From assembly GCA_017480245.1 (NCBI GenBank), contig JAFVBA010000005.1, forward strand, positions 19,875 through 83,874: 64,000 bases of DNA, in the 5' to 3' direction. The stretch is from Bacteroidales bacterium (GTDB lineage Bacteria; Bacteroidota; Bacteroidia; Bacteroidales; P3). The stretch's first letter is position 1; each line of letters begins with the position of its first letter. Below, piece by piece: positions 1,746 to 61,451 of the stretch. Under the pieces are notes generated by a model. That model saw only the letters and a program-made list of their open reading frames with translations. It was not told the origin of the DNA and did not search any database. A program made the translations under genes and the position numbers.

Positions 1746-3773
1746 TTATTTCTTCAAAAAGTCTTCGTAGTAGCGGAAAATTTTTTTGTAAAGTTCCACT
1801 CTGTCTTTACCTCTTACGTTATGCTCGTGATTAGTGTACATAAAATAATCCACAGGTTTCTTTTTCTCAACGCAAAGACGGATAAACTCCAATGAATGTT
1901 GCGGAAGTACGGTATTATCCTGGTATCCCTGCATTATAAGTATGCGGACGCTGTCAGGAATATTGTCAATATAATTCAGAAGTGAGGCCTTTTCATACCC
2001 TTCTGGGTTATCCTCAGGCGTGCCCATATAACGCTCGCCGTACATTACCTCATACCATTTCCAATCTATGACAGGCCCGCCGGCAGTTGCCACCTTAAAC
2101 ACACCAGGATTCCTTAGAGTAAGTCCCAATGTCATAAATCCGCCGTAAGACCATCCATCAACGCCTATTCTGTTAGCATCAACGTAAGGAAGTGTCTTTA
2201 AATAATTGATACCTGTTATTTGGTCGTCTATTTCTTGCGTTCCACAATTATGCCATATAGCACTCTCAAATTCATATCCACGGTTAGCACTTCCTCTTGA
2301 GTCCATAGTCCATACGATGTAGTCTTGAGTAGCAAGAAACGGTAAGAAATTACCTGCACCTGCCGTCCAATAATCCGTAATCAACTGCGCATGAGGACCG
2401 CCATAGACATAAACAATCACAGGGTACTTTTTATTAGGATTAAAGTCCTTCGGCTTAATCATACGTGTGTAAAGAACCGTTCCGTCCTTTGCAATAAGAG
2501 AATCAATTGTGATGATAGGTTTGTTACTCAACTCGTCAAACGGGTCTTTTACAAAATCCAACTCCTTAATTACCTTTCCCTTTTCGTCTCTTATAACCGT
2601 ACGGTATGCAACCTCGGTAGAAGAATAAGAATCTATAAAACGCGTGCCTTTAGGATTGAAGGCAACAGTATGGGTTCCGTGGTCAAGAGTTATTCTTGTG
2701 ATTTTACCGTCCTTAATATTGACTGCATAAAAATTACGTTCCAACGGAGAATCCTTAGTTGCGTAAATATAAACGACAGTTCCCTTATCATTGAAACCTG
2801 CTATGTCATTAACCATCCAATTACCCTTGGTAAGTTGTTTAATCTCCTTACCCAAGGTATCATATATGTAAAGATGTTGCCAACCGTCCTTTTCGGAAAA
2901 GTAAAGAAACTTTCCGTTGTCGTTAGGTATGAATGTAAGCGGATGTTCAGGCTCTACATATTTATTAGATACCTCTTCAAACAACACTCTTTTCAAAAGA
3001 CCGCTTTCTGATGAGTATGCCTCCAACCACATGTGGTTTTGCTTACGGTTAAGTTTCTGAATATAGACTGTTTTGCCGTCCGCAGAGAAACAAACATTGG
3101 TAAGATAGTTTTCTCTTTGCTCAACGCTGTTGTCTTTGCGGGTTTTAAGGCAGACTTTCCTATCCTTTGCGAAATCATATACCCAAACTTCAACTTCATG
3201 GGACTTCATACCAGCCATAGGGTACTTGATAGGGGTATGTTTTGCCTCACGGGTCATAGTATTTACCAACGGATAATCACCAACCATGGATTGGTCCATA
3301 CGGTAATACGCTAAATAGTTGCCGTCTTGTGAAAAATAAAGTCCTTTTTCGATTCCGAACTCGTTTCTATGCACACTCTGACCGATAATTATATCAAGAC
3401 TGTCGCCGTCAAAGGTTATCTGCTTTTCATTGCCGTTTTTATTTACAAAAAGGTTGTTGTCTTTGATGTACGCTTTGTTCTTACCTACTTGTTCTAAGAA
3501 TTGAGCACCCTCTATCTGTTCTTCCTGCGTGCGTTCTACAATTTTATCGTTACCTTTCTTATCAACAATATGTTTTTGCCACTCGTTGTCGTAATAAGAA
3601 TAGGTGTCGTTGTCCTCAAATCGCGGTTGATAGACATTGATTTTCAAACGGTAAGTACCGTCCATCAAATGCTCAATATCAAGTTTGTTTTGTGCAAAAC
3701 TTATTGAAACTACAAACAAAAACGATGCGATAACTACCGCATACGTTCCACATTTTACAATTAATCTTTTCAT
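1746..3773 (-). CDS. Secreted prolyl oligopeptidase family serine peptidase (S9, dipeptidyl-peptidase IV type)
   Basis: 675 aa with a signal peptide (MKRLIVKC... SFAQ, about 28 residues), so exported to the periplasm or surface. Residues about 90-440 form the DPPIV-type beta-propeller; about 470-675 are the alpha/beta-hydrolase peptidase. The nucleophile elbow GWSYGG gives Ser542, MQGYQDN gives Asp619, and NHEHNVRG the catalytic His (about 651). The family removes X-Pro dipeptides from peptide amino-termini and serves protein/peptide feeding in Bacteroidetes. The exact P1 preference is inferred. It is slightly shorter than typical DPP IV (about 720 aa). A TATCTTTG box lies 40 bp upstream of the start. 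Confidence 0.9.
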   Translation of the reverse strand: MKRLIVKCGTYAVVIASFLFVVSISFAQNKLDIEHLMDGTYRLKINVYQPRFEDNDTYSYYDNEWQKHIVDKKGNDKIVERTQEEQIEGAQFLEQVGKNKAYIKDNNLFVNKNGNEKQITFDGDSLDIIIGQSVHRNEFGIEKGLYFSQDGNYLAYYRMDQSMVGDYPLVNTMTREAKHTPIKYPMAGMKSHEVEVWVYDFAKDRKVCLKTRKDNSVEQRENYLTNVCFSADGKTVYIQKLNRKQNHMWLEAYSSESGLLKRVLFEEVSNKYVEPEHPLTFIPNDNGKFLYFSEKDGWQHLYIYDTLGKEIKQLTKGNWMVNDIAGFNDKGTVVYIYATKDSPLERNFYAVNIKDGKITRITLDHGTHTVAFNPKGTRFIDSYSSTEVAYRTVIRDEKGKVIKELDFVKDPFDELSNKPIITIDSLIAKDGTVLYTRMIKPKDFNPNKKYPVIVYVYGGPHAQLITDYWTAGAGNFLPFLATQDYIVWTMDSRGSANRGYEFESAIWHNCGTQEIDDQITGINYLKTLPYVDANRIGVDGWSYGGFMTLGLTLRNPGVFKVATAGGPVIDWKWYEVMYGERYMGTPEDNPEGYEKASLLNYIDNIPDSVRILIMQGYQDNTVLPQHSLEFIRLCVEKKKPVDYFMYTNHEHNVRGKDRVELYKKIFRYYEDFLKK

Positions 3774-3991: not shown

Positions 3992-4022
3992 TTTGTCATA
4001 AATAAAAATTGTTATATTTTTG
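3992..4022 (+). promoter_or_regulatory. Promoter of the cobalamin-riboswitch transcript
   Basis: TTTG, 19-bp spacer, TATTTTTG: an exact match to the Bacteroidetes promoter consensus. The predicted transcript start is a few bases before the first paired bases of the riboswitch. Confidence 0.75.
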
Positions 4023-4028
4023 CACCGT

Positions 4029-4202
4029 CAAATTACGGTTCTTTGATTAGATAGATTAATAGGGAAATAGGTGCAAATCCTATGCTATACCCGTAGCTGT
4101 AATCTCCGCCTGAGATTTTTGAATTATAAAAACCACTGCTTTTTATAATGTGGGAAGGTATCAAAAATCGGAGAAAGTCAGAAGACCTGCCGTTAATTTG
4201 AT
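4029..4202 (+). promoter_or_regulatory. Cobalamin (B12) riboswitch
   Basis: The core is recognisable by eye: a closing stem (AAATTACGG near the 5' end, CCGTTAATTT at the 3' end), the GGTGCAAATCC segment, the CCCGTAGCTGTAA segment, a variable internal hairpin, and the B12 box AAGTCAGAAGACCTGCC near 4175-4193. These elements occur in this order only in cobalamin riboswitches. In this family, adenosyl- or methylcobalamin binding usually lowers expression of the downstream gene. About 190 nt separate it from the start codon and probably hold the expression platform; I could not assign that structure. Confidence 0.93.
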
Positions 4203-4391
4203 TTATATCGTAACTTTCGGGAGTTAGAGTTATTGATAAGCGTCGTTATATATTATGTGCAAATACTTATGCAATGCATGGGTATTGTGTATGCGGAATG
4301 TAGCACAATATAATTTCGTATAAAATCAATCCTCTCTCTGAATATTGCGAACAGTTAAATAATTTATTAATAAAATTTAAAAGTTTAAAGG

Positions 4392-7300
4392 ATGAAAAAA
4401 CTTTTTTGCAGCCTATTGTTGGCTCTGACAACAATGATTTTAGGATTTGACACATCGCTTTTTGCACAAGGCGACTGTGCAACGCCTACTGACGTTCAGG
4501 CAATGTGGATTGAAGACGATCATGCCTATGCTATGTGGAACGGAAGTGCATCAGATTATATTATTTACTTCAAAAAAGTAGGTGATGCTACTTATGAAGA
4601 AATAGAAGTATCAGGAGTCTTTTTCAAGTCTTTGGATAATCTGTCAAAAGGTACTCAATATGAGTTCTATATTGTTGCTAAATGCAGCGAAGACAACCTT
4701 TCTTCTCCTTCCGTAATTGTACAATTTACTACTACGGGAACTCCTGACTGCGAGGACATAACCTATCTTCCTTACGCTGAAGATTTTGAATCTTACGGCA
4801 TAAGCAGCAGTCCTAATTTCACTTTCCCTACTTGTTGGAGTAAAGTTTCAAACAGCAACACTCCTAATATTTCTTCTACTCACCACAGTGGTAGTGGCGG
4901 GTTGTATATGCTTTCCGGTACGGAGGATTATGTGGCAGCCGTTATGCCGAAACTTGCCGACAACATCAACATTCAAAATACCGAAATGACGTTTTGGGCT
5001 AAGGTTAATTCACTTGGGCACAAAATCTATGTAGGTGTGGCATCTGAATCCGATAATATGTATTATTTTGATACCATTGCTTCATTTGTTCCTACGGTTA
5101 AAACTTGGCAGGAATATACTGTAAGTTTTAAAGACTACAAAGGTTCAAACAGATACATTACTTTCCTTTCCAAAAAGAAAGATGACGGTTACGGCAATAA
5201 TTATTACATTGATGACATCACACTTTATGAAGCGGAAAACAACGACGAGCCTAATTTTACGGGACTTATCCACTATACTTCCGAACTTATCTCCGACTAT
5301 GCTTATGGTATGGAGCTACAACGCCCTTCTACCAATACAATCGGTACATACATGGATGTTATAGGGGAAATTGACCCGACTAAATATGCAGACATGTATA
5401 AAGGTATCGCTTTGGCAACATTTTCCGCTCCTATTATAGATCAAGATGGGGAAGATTTTGCAGTATTTTCAAACAATTATTACTTAGGTTCTGCTCACAT
5501 AGAAGTATCTTCTAACGGTACTGACTTTTTCCGCTTCAACAACAAAGCGACTACGCAATTCAACGATTACGGGCAGTTATTTGATTTATCCGAGTTGGAA
5601 GATAGCGACAATTTGGACAAACAAAATATACGCTTTATCAAGATTATAGACGATACCACCAACGGTTATTGTCTTGAAGGCATTGCTGTAATAAACAAAG
5701 GGGAAAATTATTCTTTTGCTTCTTTAGATGATATTGATTTTGAGGAAAACAGCGTTGAACTTACTTCACATGACAGCTATGATTACATTGCTTTTGACGG
5801 TTCTTACCACAAAGATTTCACAAGTGGCGGACTTGTCTTCCATGGAGTTGCAACCTATTTTGCTGAATGGAATTTTGAGATGTCTTTTTCCTGGTTTTTG
5901 ACAAATATAACTGAAAATAGTTCCGCTAATGTCATAGGAGGAACATCTTTGGACAATACTTATTTTGCTTCTGCCTCACAACAGGGTATGAATTCCGCAA
6001 ATTATTTGAGCGGTTATTATTCCAGTATGAATACGGAAGAACAGTTGGCAGTTATGACTGAAAACGGTAAATATTTTACACCTAACGGAGTTTATGTTGC
6101 TTCTTCTTTGGCTGCTTATCAGTATTCTCTTTCTAAATATAACTTGAATTTCAAAGTTATTGCTACGGGGTATGATGAAAACGGGGAAATTCTTTCAAGT
6201 AAAGAATATATTTTGATAGACAAAGAATCTAACCCAATATTCAATCCTACTCATTGGCGTTTTATGGATTTAAGTTCTTTGGGTGCAGTTGCAAAAGTGG
6301 TATTCACATTGACAACCACCGACCCTACTCAATATATTCCTTTCTATTTCTGTATAGATGAATTTTCTTACACGTTGGGAGAGGATATTCCTGTCAATAT
6401 TATAAATCAAGAAATCTGTGAAGGCGAATCCTTTATGAATAAAACAGAAAGCGGAACATATACAGAAGGATTTACTGTATTGAATCTGATAGTTAATCCT
6501 TTGAATAAAATTAATTTGGACACAACTATTTGTGCTAACGCTTTATTTGAATTCAATAACAAATCTTACACTGCTTCCCAAGTCATTATTGATACAATTG
6601 CCGCTGCACAAGGTTGCGACACTATCTATACTATTAACCTTACAGTTGCAGATCCTATCGTCACTGATACAAATATAACAATTGAATATGCTCAAATGCC
6701 ATTTGTTTTTGGCAATCAAACTTTATATGCCGGAGGTAATTATTCGCAAACCTTCATTGCCCAAAACGGTTGCGACTCTACTGTTAATCTTCACTTAACT
6801 ATCAAGGACAAACTTATAATTAATGTTGCTTTTGATACAACTATTTGTGCCAACTCTTCATTTGAATTTTACGGCAAGACTTATTCAGAACCGCAAACCA
6901 TTATTGACACCATTTTTACCTCAACCGAAGCAGATACTGCCTATACTATCAATCTTACGTTTGCTGCTCCTATTGTCAATAGCGTAAATGAAACTATTGA
7001 ATATGCACAAAAGCCTTATCTGTTCGGAGAATTGTCCATAGAAGAGAGCGGCGATTATTCGCAAATCTTTATTGCTCAAAACGGTTGCGACTCTACCGTT
7101 AATCTTCACTTAACTATCAACGACAAACCTATAATTGACGTTGCTTTTGACACAACTATTTGTGCCAACTCTTCATTTGAATTCAATGGCAAGACTTATT
7201 CGGAAACGCAAACTATAATTGACACTATTTTTACCTCAATTGAAGCGGATACAGCCTATACAATCAATCTTACTGTCGCTCAAGAAATTGTTGTTTCTGT

Positions 7301-7691
7301 GAGTTTGGAAGTATTGCAGGAGGATTTACCTTTGCAATTCGGCGATTTGTCTTTGACTGAAAGTGGAGAATACTCTCAAACTTTCACTGCACAAAATGGT
7401 TGTGACTCTATCGTGAATTTACAACTGACGGTATTGTCTGCAATAGAAGATTTGGAACAGACAACGGAGATAACCATTTATCCAAATCCTGCAAAAGATT
7501 TTATTGTTGTGGATTTTGGCGGTATGATTACGGATAACAATCTACAAATAAGCGTTACGAATAATATCGGTCAAACAATCGGTCAATACAATCTGCAAAA
7601 CGACAGAATCAATATCAATATCAGCCGTTGGCAAAGCGGAATGTATTACGTAAAATACGGCAACACAGTAAAGAAATTTGTAATTGAATAG
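4392..7691 (+). CDS. T9SS-secreted surface protein with DUF4465 domain, under B12 riboswitch control
   Basis: 1099 aa. Domains in order: signal peptide (to about residue 25, LFAQG); fibronectin III (about 30-115); a jelly-roll/choice-of-anchor J type module starting YAEDFESYG (about 120-285); a module with DFAVFSNNYY and IEVSSNGTDFFRF (about 290-440) as seen in Bacteroidetes cell-surface proteins; DUF4465 (about 445-670), recognised by GTSLDNTYFA, NGVYVASS and WRFMDLSSLG...FCID; three repeats built on DTTICANSSFEF and AQNGCDSTVNLHLTI (about 690-1015); and a T9SS type A sorting domain (IYPNPAKDF... to the end). The B12 riboswitch directly upstream suggests a role in cobamide capture at the cell surface. 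From memory, DUF4465-type proteins are linked to B12 loci in gut Bacteroidetes. Binding is inferred, not shown. Confidence 0.85.
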   Translation: MKKLFCSLLLALTTMILGFDTSLFAQGDCATPTDVQAMWIEDDHAYAMWNGSASDYIIYFKKVGDATYEEIEVSGVFFKSLDNLSKGTQYEFYIVAKCSEDNLSSPSVIVQFTTTGTPDCEDITYLPYAEDFESYGISSSPNFTFPTCWSKVSNSNTPNISSTHHSGSGGLYMLSGTEDYVAAVMPKLADNINIQNTEMTFWAKVNSLGHKIYVGVASESDNMYYFDTIASFVPTVKTWQEYTVSFKDYKGSNRYITFLSKKKDDGYGNNYYIDDITLYEAENNDEPNFTGLIHYTSELISDYAYGMELQRPSTNTIGTYMDVIGEIDPTKYADMYKGIALATFSAPIIDQDGEDFAVFSNNYYLGSAHIEVSSNGTDFFRFNNKATTQFNDYGQLFDLSELEDSDNLDKQNIRFIKIIDDTTNGYCLEGIAVINKGENYSFASLDDIDFEENSVELTSHDSYDYIAFDGSYHKDFTSGGLVFHGVATYFAEWNFEMSFSWFLTNITENSSANVIGGTSLDNTYFASASQQGMNSANYLSGYYSSMNTEEQLAVMTENGKYFTPNGVYVASSLAAYQYSLSKYNLNFKVIATGYDENGEILSSKEYILIDKESNPIFNPTHWRFMDLSSLGAVAKVVFTLTTTDPTQYIPFYFCIDEFSYTLGEDIPVNIINQEICEGESFMNKTESGTYTEGFTVLNLIVNPLNKINLDTTICANALFEFNNKSYTASQVIIDTIAAAQGCDTIYTINLTVADPIVTDTNITIEYAQMPFVFGNQTLYAGGNYSQTFIAQNGCDSTVNLHLTIKDKLIINVAFDTTICANSSFEFYGKTYSEPQTIIDTIFTSTEADTAYTINLTFAAPIVNSVNETIEYAQKPYLFGELSIEESGDYSQIFIAQNGCDSTVNLHLTINDKPIIDVAFDTTICANSSFEFNGKTYSETQTIIDTIFTSIEADTAYTINLTVAQEIVVSVSLEVLQEDLPLQFGDLSLTESGEYSQTFTAQNGCDSIVNLQLTVLSAIEDLEQTTEITIYPNPAKDFIVVDFGGMITDNNLQISVTNNIGQTIGQYNLQNDRININISRWQSGMYYVKYGNTVKKFVIE

Positions 7692-30334: not shown

Positions 30335-30408
30335 CTGCACGAAATTAAAGTGCGATATTAATCAAATAAAGTGCGAAATTATTTTACTAATCTCGCACTT
30401 TATTTTTT
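30335..30408 (+). repeat. Dispersed palindromic repeat, family A, copy 4 (divergent)
   Basis: AAATAAAGTGCGAAAT and ATCTCGCACTTTATTTTTT form a hairpin at 30363-30407; a third AAAGTGCGA precedes it. It shares the family's AATAAAGTGC end but not the inner segments. With its T-rich end it probably also terminates htpG. Confidence 0.55.
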
Positions 30409-30557
30409 GCATATAACGTATTGATAGAGTAAATAAATATGATCTTGATTTATAATTAGTTTTACATTCCCACATTCAAAATTTTAAAATTTTTACACTT
30501 TTGAAAGAGGGTGTAAAATTACAAAAAGATTTTAGGTATCATGATAAAAACCTAAAT

Positions 30558-31190
30558 TTATAATTTATTGAAGACGTCATTCGGGTTACTCTGCATTTTT
30601 AATAACCTTGCAGAAACTTTTTTCCACGAATAATTGCCGTCAAATACTTGTAAAGGTTTGTCAAAATTAATTTCTTCAAAAAAAGTTAAGCACTTTAATG
30701 GCATAAGTGTAGAAGAGCGGTATTTTTCTATATAGAAAGATAACATAGTATTTAGTGAAAACTTGTCAGATAGATAGGCAATGTCAACAAAGTCCTTTAA
30801 CCTTGTTCCATTTGAAGATATTGCATTAAGTTTCATCGCAATTATGTCTTCAATGCTTGCAAACCGTATTCCATTTTCTGTCTTAAACTCCCTAATCCAA
30901 GGATAGTAATGCGTAAGACAATCTATTTGTACATTGTTTATTGTTCCTTTTATTGTATCTTGCGCTTCAAACTCAGCAATAAAACTATATTTCTTTTGCA
31001 AATGTCTTTTTAATGCTTGTGTATCAAAACTTTTTTCTGTAAATAAGTCAATATCTACACTTTTACGGTGTCCTATCTGCAAAGCAAGTGATGTTTCGCC
31101 CACAAGAACGAAATCCTTTAACAATTCTTCGGACATTAATTGTTTTATGAGTTCCAATGTCGCGTGGCTAACGGTTGAGAGGTGTAACAT
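30558..31190 (-). CDS. AbiEii/AbiGii-family nucleotidyltransferase toxin
   Basis: 210 aa. The nucleotidyltransferase core has FVLVGETSLALQIGHR and the catalytic SVDIDLF (two Asp), then the family helix FASIEDIIAMKLNAISSNGTRLKDFVDI. Proteins of this family are the toxin half of type IV or AbiE-like toxin-antitoxin pairs that give abortive phage infection or stabilise mobile DNA. The usual GG(T/S) of the fold is GE(T) here. Its start overlaps the end of the upstream gene by 46 bp, so the pair is translated as a unit. Low similarity of composition to core neighbours is consistent with an acquired module, which is inference. Confidence 0.85.
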   Translation of the reverse strand: MLHLSTVSHATLELIKQLMSEELLKDFVLVGETSLALQIGHRKSVDIDLFTEKSFDTQALKRHLQKKYSFIAEFEAQDTIKGTINNVQIDCLTHYYPWIREFKTENGIRFASIEDIIAMKLNAISSNGTRLKDFVDIAYLSDKFSLNTMLSFYIEKYRSSTLMPLKCLTFFEEINFDKPLQVFDGNYSWKKVSARLLKMQSNPNDVFNKL

Positions 31191-31462
31191 TTCAAATCTT
31201 CTTTTTTCAAATTAAACAATGCACAAACAAAAGACATATCTTTTCTGTTTAGATACGGTATGTTTTTGACGGTATTTACTATATCATCGTAATCATATAA
31301 GTTAAACATCGCATAAAAATCGGAAACAAATCCTCTTTCTATCAAACGCTGAACAACAATAGGTTTCATTTTCTGCCAATCAAACCTATTCATATCGTAT
31401 TCCCAAAAGAGATTTTCCCGTATCGTTGCGTTCTTATGTTGTAAATAATCCTCAAAAAACAT
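31145..31462 (-). CDS. Putative antitoxin partner of the AbiEii toxin (DUF6922-like)
   Basis: 105 aa, mostly helical, starting MFFEDYLQHKNATIRENLFWEYD. The WEYD...FDWQKMKPIVVQRLIERG section resembles the small helical proteins found directly before AbiEii-type toxins in Bacteroidetes (annotated, as far as I recall, as DUF6922). It overlaps the toxin start by 46 bp. I infer an antitoxin or DNA-binding repressor role from position; no helix-turn-helix is obvious. Confidence 0.65.
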   Translation of the reverse strand: MFFEDYLQHKNATIRENLFWEYDMNRFDWQKMKPIVVQRLIERGFVSDFYAMFNLYDYDDIVNTVKNIPYLNRKDMSFVCALFNLKKEDLKCYTSQPLATRHWNS

Positions 31463-31542
31463 AATTCAAGTATTTATATTGCAAAATTACAAAAAGTTTT
31501 TTGTTCGTCAATAATGCGACAAAGTTTATAAATTAAGTAAGA

Positions 31543-32499
31543 TTAAAATAATCTCATCTGCTGTTCTTTGCTACTATTATATATGACTTTTAATAAATCA
31601 TCAACATCATTATCTGTATTTATGATTCTAATATCAAAATCCTTTCTAATTAATTTTCTTGACAAATCAAACATTGGATTATTTATATCTTTTTTTTCAT
31701 CGTAAATAACAACCCTTTTAATTCCATATTCTTTTGCTTTAGCCATAGCGTGTCTTGAACCGCTATCATTTCCTTCGTTATTTTCTGCATAACTTGCAGA
31801 TAGGATTACACAGTCACTATATAACGCCTGTAACCTATCTCGTTCAATATATCTTGCACTTAGTTCATACCTAGAAGATATATTGGTGTGATATTCTGTT
31901 ATAAGTAACCCGTTATTATGTAGTATCTCCCTTGCTAATGGTAAATTTGATTTAGGTAATACATTATTTAATGGACTTGGGAGTATTGCTATGGTATTAC
32001 CATTATTCTCTAAAGTTTCATAATGTGCGACAGAATCACAGCCGAGAGCTAATCCGCTTACAATCGTTACACCTTGTTTAACTAAAGATTTTACAGTGAT
32101 TCTTTCTCTTTCTATGATGTCTTCAGTTGGATTCAATAGACCTATTACAGCAGTATTGTAATTATCTTTTTGTAGTAAATCTAAATTTCCTTTGTAAAAT
32201 AATACAACGGGTTGCTCTGACGCTTTTATATTTCCTCTAAACTCAGGGAAGTCATCATCTCCTATTGCTGAAACTTCAAATCCTTCGGATTGTATATAAA
32301 GGCTATTCAGCATATCTCTTATTTCGTCCTTTTTTTCATTAAAAGAGTATAGAGTAACATCAATGCCTTTTATGTTTAATAATCCAACAATACTCTCTAT
32401 GGGTTGTTTATTTTTTAAGTTATTTGCGACCCACGCCTTACCAATGCCTTTATAGGTCATTGCTGTCAAAATATTTAATGCATTATCTGTCTTTTTCAT
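31543..32499 (-). CDS. DprA/Smf-like Rossmann (SLOG superfamily) protein in accessory operon
   Basis: 318 aa. The central part carries the DprA core: TIVSGLALGCDSVAHYETL matches the SGLAxGxDxxAH motif, and RYIERDRLQALYSDCVIL matches the (R)NRxIAxLSD segment, followed by GSRHAMAKAKEYGIKRVVIYD. The first motif VG(T/S)R is replaced by VIGLLNP. There is no C-terminal winged-helix domain, and the amino part differs from competence DprA, so this is a paralogue rather than the transformation protein. Known DprA loads RecA on ssDNA; SLOG relatives bind nucleotides. Last gene of a tight operon (8 bp after the phosphoribosyltransferase). Role unknown. Confidence 0.8.
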   Translation of the reverse strand: MKKTDNALNILTAMTYKGIGKAWVANNLKNKQPIESIVGLLNIKGIDVTLYSFNEKKDEIRDMLNSLYIQSEGFEVSAIGDDDFPEFRGNIKASEQPVVLFYKGNLDLLQKDNYNTAVIGLLNPTEDIIERERITVKSLVKQGVTIVSGLALGCDSVAHYETLENNGNTIAILPSPLNNVLPKSNLPLAREILHNNGLLITEYHTNISSRYELSARYIERDRLQALYSDCVILSASYAENNEGNDSGSRHAMAKAKEYGIKRVVIYDEKKDINNPMFDLSRKLIRKDFDIRIINTDNDVDDLLKVIYNSSKEQQMRLF

Positions 32500-32507
32500 A
32501 TTTTTAT

Positions 32508-33431
32508 TTATATCTTATTTTTGTTTGTAAAAGCTACTGTATAAAGTATAACGGATTTTGCACCATTATCGTATAATGCTTGTATGCAATCTTCATCAAC
32601 ATTGACGGATTTAGTGTAAATATCGTCTATTAAAAGAATGTTTTTACCACAAACATCTGCTGCGATATTACATGTGTTTCGTGTTATGCCAACGTATGGT
32701 AATGGTAGATTATCTTCTACATCATAATTCTTAGTATGAGTAGTTTTTGTATCAGAGTGTCGCAAAATATAATGAGTACCATCTAGTAATGGCGCATTAT
32801 ATTGTCTATTATACCATGATATCCAATCAGAAATAGCAGATCTAAATAATTTTTGGTTAAATGTATAGAACTCTTCATGCTTTGCTCTAGGAACAACACA
32901 TATAGTAATAGACGAATCAAACTTTGAGAAAATAGTAGGTAAACTATTCGTCAAGACTTGGTTTAATTCTTCTACAGCCATTTGTAATTGAATACTGCTA
33001 GTATAATTATACTTATTTTTTAGAACATTAATGAAGTCTGGATTATTAAGCTCTTTATATCCTAAATAATAAGTAGAAAAGAATGCTATAATGTTTTTTG
33101 AGAGAAATTCATTTGAGGAGAGTAGAAAACTATAAATCCCGTTTTCTTTTAAAGACATAATTTCAAATATAGGGTATTCCTCTCCATTGAATTTATAATT
33201 GGGATTTGTAATTTTTATCTCCGCATTTTTTAATTCAAATTTAAAGTCATTCTTTTTCATATACTCAAATAATTCGGTCTTTAGAAAAGAAATAGCTTTG
33301 ACTTTATTAGCATTATTCATCAACTCCAAAATAAAGTAATTTCTATTAGGTTTTACTCTATATTGTACTATATTTTGAATATTTATCAGTTCTGGTATAG
33401 ACAAAACTTGATATTTTTTAAGAGTTTCCAT
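32508..33431 (-). CDS. Type I phosphoribosyltransferase-domain protein in accessory operon
   Basis: 307 aa. The PRPP loop NILLIDDIYTKSVNVDED (about residues 265-282) is the type I phosphoribosyltransferase motif (hydrophobic strand, DD, then loop), closest in look to ComF-type proteins. The first ~150 residues are unlike any domain I recognise. The usual TG(A/S)T of the loop reads TKSVN, so PRPP binding may be altered. It lies between HAD and DprA-like genes with 11- and 8-bp gaps. Function is unknown; nucleotide or base modification or salvage is plausible. Confidence 0.75.
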   Translation of the reverse strand: METLKKYQVLSIPELINIQNIVQYRVKPNRNYFILELMNNANKVKAISFLKTELFEYMKKNDFKFELKNAEIKITNPNYKFNGEEYPIFEIMSLKENGIYSFLLSSNEFLSKNIIAFFSTYYLGYKELNNPDFINVLKNKYNYTSSIQLQMAVEELNQVLTNSLPTIFSKFDSSITICVVPRAKHEEFYTFNQKLFRSAISDWISWYNRQYNAPLLDGTHYILRHSDTKTTHTKNYDVEDNLPLPYVGITRNTCNIAADVCGKNILLIDDIYTKSVNVDEDCIQALYDNGAKSVILYTVAFTNKNKI

Positions 33432-33442
33432 TTCCTTTATTT

Positions 33443-33913
33443 CTAATTCTCAAAAATTTCGAAATAATATTTTTGTTTACTTCTTAATGAATACAAAAAG
33501 TCATATTTATTTGTTCCGACATAATCTTCATAGAAATACATTTCAGTAAAGTATTTCTCCAAATGATAATATCTTACAATTTCTAATGCTCGTTGTTTGT
33601 GAGAATTGGTTAATAAATATGTTTCCTGTTTCATTTGAGATAAATCTATAAGTCTATCCATTAGTTTTTGATTAGGAATAGTGTCTTTTAGATATGTCTT
33701 AAATTGCCTTTCTTTGATGGTGATTATAGATTGATATTGCTCTTTTGTCATCTCTGGGAACAATTTTAATAATTTATCTCTTGTAAATCTCCCATCGGAT
33801 ATTGCTATGTCAATACCAATAATCTCTTTTATTGCATCCCTATATGCATAAAAATTTGCAATATCAGAATCTACCAAAGTACCATCCAAATCAAAAACAA
33901 AGATAGTCTTCAT
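33443..33913 (-). CDS. Short HAD-superfamily hydrolase in accessory operon
   Basis: 156 aa. Motif I FVFDLDGTLVDS (nucleophile Asp), motif II YLLTNSHK and motif III region GTNKYDFL are present. The chain stops at YYFEIFEN, just where the motif IV strand with its acidic pair should begin, so it is about 50 residues shorter than beta-phosphoglucomutase-like HADs. The stop lies 11 bp before the next start, so this length may be natural rather than a recent truncation. Phosphatase activity, probably on a nucleotide or sugar phosphate, is inferred. Confidence 0.75.
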   Translation of the reverse strand: MKTIFVFDLDGTLVDSDIANFYAYRDAIKEIIGIDIAISDGRFTRDKLLKLFPEMTKEQYQSIITIKERQFKTYLKDTIPNQKLMDRLIDLSQMKQETYLLTNSHKQRALEIVRYYHLEKYFTEMYFYEDYVGTNKYDFLYSLRSKQKYYFEIFEN

Positions 33914-33921
33914 TGGAACTA

Positions 33922-34062
33922 TTACTTAATAGCATTAGCAACTTGTTGTAGAAGTTCTTCCTCTTTGGACAACTTCTCTTGATTCAAAAGTTCTTCTTTG
34001 CTAAGTGCTACTGCTGCTTGCTGTAATAGTCCTTCTGCTTCTTGAACATTCTTTTTTACCAT
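33922..34062 (-). CDS. 46-aa peptide opening the HAD-PRTase-DprA operon
   Basis: ATG-to-TAA frame of 46 codons, 8 bp before the HAD start. Sequence begins MVKKNVQEAEGLLQQAAVAL and ends EEELLQQVANAIK: a highly charged amphipathic helix with an internal near-repeat of LLQQ(A/V)A. No Cys, Pro or Trp. Spacing matches the other junctions of the operon (8-11 bp), which argues it is translated. I do not know a family. Possibilities are an antitoxin-like or regulatory peptide, a leader peptide for the structured RNA upstream, or a substrate peptide. Confidence 0.7.
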   Translation of the reverse strand: MVKKNVQEAEGLLQQAAVALSKEELLNQEKLSKEEELLQQVANAIK

Positions 34063-34166
34063 TTTCTTTTTTGTTTTTAAGGTTAAAGATCTTTTTAAAA
34101 TGGCAAGTAACTGATTAATTTCGGCAGGAAAGAAATAATATAAATAAAAGAGGTGTGAAAACTTCT

Positions 34167-34360
34167 TTTCGCATCTCGGGTAAAAGCATAGGAGAAATAC
34201 CCGTCCTAATTCTTTAATTGACTTTCAGAAGCACACACCAAAAGGTGTATATTCTTAAGCACGAATTAGGTATAACTCCTAAAACTTTTTCCGTTTTACT
34301 AATTATTTCTTAATGAAATCAAATATAAAGGTTCCTATGCTTTTATTTGACGATGCGAAA
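34167..34360 (-). ncRNA. Highly structured leader RNA of the accessory operon
   Basis: Read on the minus strand. Outer stem TTTCGCATC (34360-34352) with GATGCGAAA (34175-34167), 9 bp. Second stem AAAAGCATAGG (34344-34334) with CCTATGCTTTT (34192-34182), 11 bp. Inside is a domain closed by CCTAATTC (34270-34263) and GAATTAGG (34212-34205) holding a hairpin ATACACC-TTTT-GGTGTGT. An alternative hairpin CGGGTA (34203-34198)/TACCCG (34182-34177) encloses the second stem's 3' strand, so it would be a pseudoknot or a competing fold. It is transcribed from a consensus promoter and sits about 105 nt before the micro-peptide start. Confidence 0.7.
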
Positions 34361-34402
34361 TAATAGTCAAATGCCAAAGTTTTATCTGCACAATTGCAAC
34401 TG

Positions 34403-34434
34403 CAAAAGTACAAACAAATTTTAAATCCAACAAA
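34403..34434 (-). promoter_or_regulatory. Promoter of the leader RNA and accessory operon
   Basis: Minus strand TTTG (34434-34431), 20-bp spacer, TACTTTTG (34410-34403): full consensus. Predicted start about 34396, giving a leader of about 330 nt before the first start codon. Confidence 0.75.
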
Positions 34435-34491
34435 TAAAAACAGAAAAAATTAAAACACCGTCTTATTGTATCCTTATCGCAAATCAATTTT

Positions 34492-34579
34492 GAAAAACCA
34501 TGGTATTTTTATCGAAAAACCTATGTTTTTTACACGAAAAACCCTGGTTTTTTAATTCAAAAACATAGGTTTTTCAAAA
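34492..34579. repeat. 22-bp four-unit array, family B, copy 1
   Basis: Four consecutive 22-bp units, each a 16-bp AT-flanked palindrome-like core: AAAAACCATGGT, AAAAACCTATGT, AAAAACCCTGGT and AAAAACATAGGT, separated by 6-bp spacers. The array is bounded by TTTTGAAAAACC and GGTTTTTCAAAATT, so its ends mirror each other. Confidence 0.85.
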
Positions 34580-34701
34580 TTAAAGAGCGAAAATAATTTT
34601 CATTTATCCGATATTGTTATTTTTAATTGCGTTGATAGTTTAGAGTTTAAGGTTTAAAGTTTAGAGATTAGAATGACTCTGAATGTGGCTCTAAATTTTA
34701 G

Positions 34702-34938
34702 ACAAAAAACAATAAAAGTGAGTCTGGTGATGAGACTAATCATGAGACTGATTCTGACACTGATAAGAAACTAATCGCACTTATAAAACGCAATAATCAA
34801 ATTAGTTACGACGATATGGCAATTAGTCTCAACCTATCGCGTTCAACGGTATCAAGAATAGTGAAAAGATTGGTATCAAACGGCAAATTAATCCGCCACG
34901 GCAACACCCGAAGCGGCTATTGGGAAATAAAAAAATAG
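34702..34938 (+). pseudogene. C-terminal winged-helix remnant of an AlbA_2/AAA_4-type ATP-binding protein
   Basis: The frame is open from just after a stop at 34699-34701 to TAG at 34938 and encodes an acidic linker and KKLIALIKRNNQISYDD, then MAISLNLSRSTVSRIVKRL and a wing ending RSGYWEIKK. This is the terminal helix-turn-helix typical of large divergent-AAA (AlbA_2) regulators. There is no plausible ATG before 34816 and no ATPase domain, so I read it as a decayed fragment, left between the accessory operon and the core recF locus. Confidence 0.7.
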
Positions 34939-34951
34939 AAAAGTTCAAACT

Positions 34952-35290
34952 TTATTTGATGATGATGCTTTTCAGGACTTCTTTGCCGAGTTTGCGGTTG
35001 ATGTTATCGCGCATTGCGTCCCTGACCATCATTAATTCGGCTTTGATTGTCGGTAATGACACTTTGACATTAAGAATCATTCCGTTCATTCTTATATCCG
35101 TTATGAATTTTTCAATCATTGTTCCGACCATTTCCTTAAAGAGTGCTATTACTTTGTCTTCGTACGGATTGTAATCAATATGACATTTTTTCAGAAATTG
35201 ATTTAACACATCTGCTATCGGAGATTCGTTGGCTATGGAGCGTCCCCTTCGTTTTTTCTCTAAGAAATAATATTGGTTTATGCCGCTCAT
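34952..35290 (-). CDS. DUF721 domain protein (DciA-like)
   Basis: 112 aa. The DUF721 fold is seen in IADVLNQFLKKC, FKEMVGTMIEKF and the conserved VSLPTIKAELMMVRDAM segment. Family members include DciA, the helicase-loading protein of bacteria that lack DnaC. In Bacteroidetes the gene sits beside recF, as here: its start codon overlaps the recF stop by 4 bp, so the two are translationally coupled. Some DUF721 proteins have an N-terminal KH-like region only, which matches the short length. Confidence 0.85.
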   Translation of the reverse strand: MSGINQYYFLEKKRRGRSIANESPIADVLNQFLKKCHIDYNPYEDKVIALFKEMVGTMIEKFITDIRMNGMILNVKVSLPTIKAELMMVRDAMRDNINRKLGKEVLKSIIIK

Positions 35291-52338: not shown

Positions 52339-52614
52339 AGTGTAAAATATGTTGTTGTAATGTTGATTGTGCAAAGTTACAATATATTTTCCGATATTTT
52401 TATGATAAAACCTTACTTTATTTCAGAAGTATCGCTAAAATAAGTTGTTGTGCTTAGTGTTGAGACAATATTTTGCTTTTCTGTATTAGAGTAATGACGA
52501 AGTACATAATTCTTTCGTTCTACTTATACAATATATTATAGATATATGACTGTATTTTAATAATATAAAAAATCAATATTTTGTTATTTTAAATTATTTT
52601 GGCACTTTAATTTT

Positions 52615-52702
52615 GAAAAACCTATGTATTTCGTTCAAAAAACCTATGTTTTTGAATTAAAAAACCATGGTTTTTCACTCAAAAAACATAGGTTTTTCAA
52701 AA
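52615..52702. repeat. 22-bp four-unit array, family B, copy 2
   Basis: Four exact 22-bp units with cores CCTATG, CCTATG, CCATGG, CATAGG between A- and T-runs. Its reverse complement has the same core order as copy 3 (61364-61451), so the two are inverted copies. Confidence 0.88.
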
Positions 52703-52788
52703 TTCTTTCTTGAAAACAATTCAAATAGATGTGATTTCAATTTTGTTAATCCATATTTTATTGTCGTGATTTACTAATTAGAAAACAT

Positions 52789-61314: not shown

Positions 61315-61363
61315 AAAATTTGCAAAATCATAAAAAAGTAAATTATTATCGCAAAAGGATTTT

Positions 61364-61451
61364 GAAAAACCTATGTTTTTTATTCCAAAAACCATGGTTT
61401 TTCACTTCAAAAACATAGGTTTTTTAATCAAAAAACATAGGTTTTTCAAAA
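61364..61451. repeat. 22-bp four-unit array, family B, copy 3
   Basis: Four exact 22-bp units with cores CCTATG, CCATGG, CATAGG, CATAGG. Located between fkbH-like and ACP genes, that is, inside what would otherwise be one operon. Confidence 0.9.

Follow-up and report, generated by a model that had tools for sequence, protein, structure and literature searches.

The closest described relative of the operon treated here is ShosTA. A review describes ShosT as a phosphoribosyltransferase (PRTase) and pyrophosphatase that disturbs purine metabolism (PMC12593503, Pu 2025 therein), and ShosA as a protein that binds DNA and counters ShosT, with Gp0.7 of phage T7 as a trigger (PMC12593503). Rousset 2022, citing Kimelman 2012, reports protection against T7 and lambda by a pair of DprA and PRTase (PMC9122126). 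In RqlHI, as described in PMC4670107, PRTase toxicity is likewise restrained by a DprA-like partner, but there PRTase and RecQ-like helicase form one fused protein, and a helix-turn-helix is present in the partner. We analyzed a 64,000-nucleotide stretch of a Bacteroidales genome (GCA_017480245.1, contig JAFVBA010000005.1, positions 19,875 to 83,874), hereafter the window, in which HAD, PRTase and DprA-like genes follow a structured leader RNA on the minus strand. From sequence comparison we favor, at a probability of roughly 60%, the reading that this is an operon of a HAD-containing ShosTA subtype to which a separable, new family of attenuator-like leader RNAs was recruited in the window's genus.

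A ShosTA-like operon with a linked HAD gene

Four head-to-tail open reading frames (ORFs) extend from 34062 to 31543 on the minus strand, with gaps of 8, 11 and 8 nt, behind the 338-nt leader (Table 1). The DprA-like protein matches the PADLOC ShosA model over residues 11-298, scoring 166 bits against 108 with TIGR00732 (cut-off 191). A PADLOC match to PsyrA (1.8e-18) indicates some likeness to PsyrTA as well. The PRTase, which adjoins this ShosA homologue across an 8-nt gap, scores 21 bits with ShosT against 15 with comF (cut-off 234), and its Pfam match is at chance level only (0.14). Its AlphaFold2 model is of low confidence (mean pLDDT, the predicted local distance difference test, 61), with a better core and a poor amino-terminal domain. 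When this low-confidence model was compared with the PDB by Foldseek, the best match was 8zvb, titled as a ShosTA system (E 4e-4, TM-score 0.34); 8zvd and 8zvc, labelled ShosT, ranked 6 and 11, with other PRTases between. Residues D269, D270, T273, D279, E280 and D281 are invariant across 7 aligned sequences, and we take them to be the loop that binds phosphoribosyl pyrophosphate (PRPP).

A preliminary description of the locus, made from its letters alone, had reported a compact four-gene operon with 8-11-bp gaps, a DprA-like protein without the winged helix and a PRTase with a new amino-terminal domain. The ORF coordinates, the absence of any winged-helix family from the Pfam list of the DprA-like protein, and the finding that the first 105 PRTase residues matched only copies of the window place all bear this out. 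The L059 PRTase has a different extension of similar length, and a predicted structure of the amino-terminal domain fell below usable confidence. That the proteins are of defence type is likewise supported by the PADLOC and fold matches. The same matches, taken with the published accounts of ShosTA, make the operon one of a known kind, and the earlier remark that no named defence system has this set plus a leader RNA does not hold for the proteins. Like ShosTA, the locus has a PRTase toxin beside a DprA-like antitoxin, in sequence and in fold. It differs in the extra upstream HAD gene and the order HAD-PRTase-DprA; in two Peduoviridae phage loci examined, the DprA gene comes first and no HAD is annotated in the stretch shown.

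In each of the 12 Bacteroidota genomes where the PRTase match is strong (E < 1e-20; weaker matches, in 11/17, 26/29 and 6/11 genomes, were taken as other PRTases and dropped), the HAD gene lies directly upstream of the PRTase. In L011 it is present only as a 90-aa piece near the contig end. DprA occurs in the same 12 genomes, once on another contig (L014/L026); L013 and L014/L026 have a split PRTase. Among four loci from named genomes the HAD is adjacent in two, Neisseria bergeri and a Ruminococcus metagenome-assembled genome, where it follows DprA. No HAD was found within the 668 nt of upstream sequence at the Thermosyntropha locus, nor in the broken copy of the locus in Neisseria iguanae. 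A Synechocystis plasmid carries HAD-hypothetical-DprA, its DprA being 54% identical. The HAD alignment keeps DxDGT, T/S and K positions, which we assume to be the HAD motifs so named, with their usual roles. At 33443-33470 (minus strand) the window HAD stops directly at FEN where three aligned relatives run on, and judging from the alignment it may be shortened.

Since the HAD is adjacent in 12 of 12 genomes, the operon does not fit a system of two genes only. The sequence data are best explained by a subtype of the ShosTA toxin-antitoxin or abortive-infection system that has three genes, one of them the HAD. This three-gene form is not named in the mostly open-access literature that was searched. 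ComF- and DprA-type families also occur in competence, and the PRTase has a weak ComF match (0.018). A DNA-uptake or nucleotide-salvage module in place of a toxin-antitoxin system is nevertheless very unlikely: both proteins score better with the Shos models than with TIGR00732 or comF, and the distribution is sparse (4 of 150 relatives, own genome included).

Leader and peptide: no linkage to the set found

The promoter and leader of about 330 nt in the preliminary description are readable in the sequence (Table 1). The promoter is presumably of the Bacteroidota type; a scan with the E. coli-type consensus gave no excess of sites (27 against 27.5 expected). The leader folds at -79.7 kcal/mol, and none of 100 shuffled sequences folds as low.

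The leader is not tied to the three enzymes. It was found in only 1 of the 12 HAD-ShosTA loci, the window itself, with the limit that it could be missed in L029 and L011, which offer 122 and 397 nt of upstream sequence, less than 400 nt. The 46-aa peptide has no match among the protein families searched, Pfam included, no relative among 262 loci beyond copies of the window place, and only chance-level matches to 18 ShosTA-type loci (best E 0.16); we therefore rejected it as a conserved component. The supposition that the whole set is linked thus holds for HAD-PRTase(-DprA), in 12 of 12 genomes, and fails for the leader and the peptide. Nor did the RNA accompany the gene set throughout: neither RNA nor peptide was found with the three enzymes elsewhere. 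A single dedicated and unnamed defence system made up of peptide, HAD, PRTase, DprA and RNA, as first proposed from their shared operon and promoter in the window, is extremely improbable given these counts and the ShosTA matches of the proteins.

In the HAD-ShosTA locus of a congener, L008, a foldable leader of about 300 nt occupies the same position (2678-2990, minus strand; -66.2 kcal/mol for 312 nt, without shuffle control). Similar-looking helices are seen, but it gave only short blastn matches and no hit with our covariance models R1, R2 or R3 (E <=1, 10 and 5); it is not counted as a member and may be a different or very diverged RNA.

A family of leader RNAs

Long copies of the leader turned up in a DNA search at other places of the window's own genome and among congeners that have no PRTase match. 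The copies in G001 and G013 are 93% and 83% identical and stand in front of different genes. This search matched 45 of 121 genomes, mostly by short stretches near the promoter end. Covariance model R1, built from three copies, recovered 28 distinct members in the collected loci after removal of duplicates. The refined model R2 detected the RNA in 49 of 189 genomes of the host's family, spread over 4 of 12 genera, and in 10 of the 295 order genomes searched, the window's own among them; the window copy is a founding sequence of R2, so that its 168.3 bits are an own-model score. In a phylum-wide sample R3 gave no hit in any of 122 other genomes. Ten copies lie in the window's genome, which is 70% complete, and 57 genomes together contain 94 members. 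Where an RNA search spanned more than 40 genomes, the filters were strict and the result is an undercount. A match in G260 (E 0.007) was excluded, and the threshold excluded reverse-strand matches of the near-palindromic rod. A pattern search of viral contigs and a blastn search of phages and plasmids with one RNA copy returned nothing.

Several RNA candidates detected by covariation in the same phylum invite comparison, namely Bacteroidales-1, Bacteroides-1, Bacteroides-2 and GUCCY-hairpin (PMC2864571). Those with Rfam entries do not match the leader. Bacteroides-2 and GUCCY-hairpin carry no Rfam number there; Bacteroides-2 is reported from one sequenced organism and not as cis-regulatory (PMC2864571). 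The main text of that paper makes no mention of methyltransferase or restriction. Rfam itself gave no match to the leader, in the window or in 17 member loci, the only hits being a cobalamin riboswitch at 4019 and three tRNAs; low-threshold matches of the leader were chance-like. The best explanation is that the leader belongs to a new family of cis-acting leader RNAs of about 300 nt, new, that is, relative to Rfam and to those of the candidates just named that have Rfam entries; a survey of 2017, which reportedly lists 224 candidate RNAs, was not compared.

The fold is conserved by covariation. In set A8 (26 members) both-side changes occur in 30 of 37 pairs and 93.1% of cells are paired, against 70.4% in shuffled and 29-49% in slid controls. 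For set A11, comprising the 84 above-threshold matches out of 92 sources supplied, the corresponding figures are 32 of 36 pairs and 89.2% (67.0% shuffled, 28-44% slid), with a covariation score of 0.608 against 0.182 shuffled and at most 0.101 slid. We also compared, for 83 members, each strand's pairing to its own partner with its pairing to other members' strands. This permutation test gave z values of 16 for P1, 26 for the long-range helix PK, 35 for P5, 10 for P5a, 11 for P6, 8 for P2', 9 for P3, 9 for P4 and 6 for P2; helices P2, P2', P3 and P4 span 6.1-9.1, and control segment pairs gave -0.5, 2.8 and 2.8. Segments of P1, PK, P5 and P5a were taken from fitted columns, and the P6, P2, P2', P3 and P4 pairs lie outside the model. 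P1, PK, P5 and P5a are thus conserved with compensatory change. Most of PK is made by the loops of hairpins P2 and P4.

Two competing helices

Two partners are open to the central strand of P5a: a 5' arm, with which it forms P5a, and a 3' arm with a U-rich tract behind it, with which it forms P6. The central strand reads GGTGT in 54 of 84 members and GGCGT in 19, and the 9 nt after P6 contain 6.8 U on average (n=80). The six-nucleotide center pairs fully with its own tail in 72 of the 84 members, against a mean of 36.9 and a maximum of 48 with permuted tails. The own-pairing score of P6 over the same members is 19.56, against 14.58 when permuted (max 16.13; 0/300 as high). Both arms track the center, as expected of a terminator/antiterminator pair, and with such alternative pairing and its U tract the RNA looks like a transcription attenuator. 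In the window leader, GGTGTG/CACACC is followed by TCTTTTATTT.

Riboswitches and attenuator leaders use alternative terminator pairing. The present RNA resembles them in its 5' leader position, conserved fold, mutually exclusive P5a and P6, and U tract; it differs in having no Rfam match, in mainly fronting restriction-modification operons and in the long range of P6.

Genes behind the RNA

In all 89 members for which the sequence reaches far enough, an ORF of >=100 aa on the same strand begins within 260 nt, compared with 28 of 84 within 400 nt in the divergent control; the 2 of 94 members without a downstream ORF are at contig ends. Upstream, 71 of 94 members carry the motif TAnnTTTG(C/T), against a mean of 5.3 and a maximum of 11 in shuffled sequence and 4/93 in the downstream control. 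A hairpin of >=7 bp precedes the start codon in 66 of 75 members examined, 61 with a GATTGATAG-type motif.

DNA methyltransferases make up at least 49 of the 60 first genes outside the window's genus: 38 EcoRI-type methylases, 6 Eco57I/N6 methylases and 5 C5 methylases. The other first genes include 3 ResIII/DEAD helicases, 1 Tsp45I enzyme, 2 S8 peptidases, 1 sulfatase and a few unassigned or weakly assigned ORFs. Five of 51 second ORFs were scanned, yielding GmrSD_N+HNH twice and HaeIII, HinP1I and an N6/N4 methylase once each. An operon of EcoRI-type methylase and a second gene recurs behind the RNA in L155, L197, L215, L226 and others; the second gene is GmrSD_N-HNH in L197 and L215, as scanned, and appears alike by eye in the rest. 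Of the 32 first genes inside the genus, 9 are of restriction or methylase type, and these nine members carry the pre-start motif; it is absent in 18 of the 32 members, including the window copy. The remaining first genes there include 4 acyltransferases, 2 BspA-like proteins, lipoproteins and peptides resembling ribosomally synthesized and post-translationally modified peptides (RiPPs), the last followed by radical-SAM-like proteins (labels by eye). In L081 and L086 the RNA precedes Cys-rich leader-like peptides and then radical-SAM-like proteins, which by eye resemble RiPP clusters.

The leader is best read as tied to restriction-modification operons in the order, acting in cis and probably by attenuation. 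Could the RNA instead stop at the U tract, giving a product of about 250 nt that acts in trans on other targets as a small RNA, or that serves the defence proteins as a structural component by binding the enzymes? The U tract after P6, the long double-stranded rod and the 10 copies in one genome would suit such a role. We think it unlikely, however, because the proteins encoded downstream share no relationship (three methylase classes, helicases, ShosTA and others), so that no common protein partner is evident, and because the start codon lies 62-74 nt away in 45 of the 60 cases from outside the genus, which together with the conserved pre-start hairpin points to action in cis.

Neighboring sequence and feature coordinates

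The AbiEii pair noted in the preliminary description is real (PF08843 5.2e-15; partner DUF6922 1.2e-15). It lies downstream of the operon at 30558-31462 (minus strand). An 88% identical AbiEii pair (L077 1-861) is again downstream of the 83% identical leader copy in G013, with different cargo between, and adjoins a different chromosomal gene (a BipA-like GTPase by eye). A leader-cargo-AbiEii cassette is possible. The wider proposal takes the element for a marker of a mobile cassette or recombination hotspot, conserved as a DNA-level structure for exchanging cargo behind a promoter; it would account for this pair and for the 93% and 83% identical leaders in G001 and G013 before different genes. 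It is decidedly unlikely, since promoter, pre-start hairpin and orientation towards the gene are conserved, and covariation, along with the gene type, extends to further families of the order. We prefer to regard the element as a leader RNA that acts on the gene behind it.

The supposed AlbA_2 remnant was not confirmed: the one ORF scanned beside the promoter (40 aa, 34816-34938) matches part of a winged-helix domain (HTH_24, 8.2e-5) and not AlbA_2. Directly before the promoter, an AT-rich stretch (34434-34520) has relatives at 52558-52744 and 61346-61392, in both orientations, and Rfam microRNA matches at 34471-34596 appear chance-like. The cobalamin riboswitch (4019-4209, plus strand, 100.2 bits) lies upstream of a large ORF, 4392-7691.

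Table 1. Positions in the window of the operon genes, the promoter and the parts of the leader RNA.
Feature	Position	Strand	Description	Basis
Promoter	34403..34434	-	TTTG 34434-34431, 20-nt spacer, TACTTTTG 34410-34403	Read from sequence
Structured leader RNA	34063..34400	-	338 nt, family member	z -4.5; 168.3 bits with model R2
Modelled leader core	34167..34360	-	P1 to P1	Covariance models R1-R3, pair counts
P1, 5' strand	34352..34360	-	TTTCGCATC, partner 34175-34167	Covariation; permutation z 16.4
PK long-range helix, 5' strand	34333..34345	-	Partner 34193-34181	Permutation z 26.3
P5 arm	34205..34270	-	34270-34263 with 34212-34205	Permutation z 34.5
P5a hairpin	34233..34250	-	ATACACC/GGTGTGT, competitor of P6	Pairing analysis
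P6 terminator-like helix	34152..34239	-	GGTGTG 34239-34234 with CACACC 34157-34152, plus CTTCT/AGAAG	Family pairing test
U-rich tract	34141..34151	-	Directly after P6	Family mean 6.8 U per 9 nt
46-aa ORF	33922..34062	-	Charged, repeat-like	Membership of system not supported
Short HAD hydrolase	33443..33913	-	156 aa	Pfam HAD_2 3.4e-7
PRTase, ShosT-like toxin	32508..33431	-	307 aa; private amino-terminal 105 aa	PADLOC ShosT 7.1e-5; PRPP-loop-like ILLIDDIYTKSVNVDED
DprA-like ShosA antitoxin	31543..32499	-	318 aa	PADLOC ShosA 2.5e-49; Pfam DNA_processg_A 4.3e-36

A proposed model of the operon and its leader

In the model that we propose for the operon, the PRTase toxin would disturb purine nucleotide pools, and the DprA-like protein would bind DNA and restrain the toxin or repair its effects. 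The HAD would probably dephosphorylate the PRTase product or nucleotides, limiting toxicity at rest. The leader would be transcribed from the TAnnTTTG promoter and adopt a core of long-range P1 with hairpins P2 and P4, whose loops pair as PK; the restriction-modification type would add a hairpin just before the start codon. Formation of P5a would allow read-through and turn the genes on. Formation of P6, with the U tract next to it, would terminate transcription and turn them off, and some signal would shift the balance between the two. Outside the window's genus the family would mainly serve restriction-modification operons; within the genus it would have multiplied and been recruited to other accessory genes, the HAD-ShosTA operon among them. 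The window copy is evidence of such recruitment, not of a dedicated ShosTA RNA.

Several observations weigh against this reading. The ShosT match of the PRTase is weak by sequence, and the role given to the HAD is guesswork, the window HAD also being short. P6 encloses about 75 nt, including P4, and is a long-range helix rather than a compact textbook terminator; a terminator scan of 30400-35000 found one site, on the other strand, and none in the leader on its own strand. For these reasons we can only infer termination. Sets A8 and A11 were both fitted to the model, and in A11 29 of 500 shuffles did as well on one measure, that of further pair types. From P2, the weakest helix in the permutation test, and the two control pairs at z 2.8 it is clear that lineage composition contributes part of the permutation signal. 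The window copy, without a GATTGATAG-type motif and with its first ORF starting at +104, falls outside the restriction-modification type; it belongs to a genus-specific subtype that mostly fronts non-restriction genes. A "defence leader" fits it less well, because that subtype precedes lipoproteins, BspA-like proteins, RiPP-like peptides and others. A strict RNA hit was found upstream of only 27 of 70 amino-terminal EcoRI-type methylase matches, a lower bound, as only 39 family RNA places, those near methylase candidates, were entered; a more sensitive search of 30 loci found 14 with the RNA at E <=2.5e-4.

Implications

Control of restriction-modification operons is usually explained by proteins, that is, by controller proteins and methylase repression. 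If the reading of an attenuator-like leader is true, one bacterial order would have a common control of immunity at the RNA level, across unrelated methylase classes, restriction helicases and a toxin-antitoxin operon. This control is directly testable, since the family defines the pairs to mutate. More tentatively, and somewhat doubtfully, the RNA might be the first known riboswitch-like class for immunity genes, sensing a metabolite or a disturbance of transcription or translation on phage attack or entry into a new host, and switching restriction-modification and ShosTA operons together. The HAD-ShosTA subtype, for its part, would add a new component to a system whose toxin chemistry has only recently been described.

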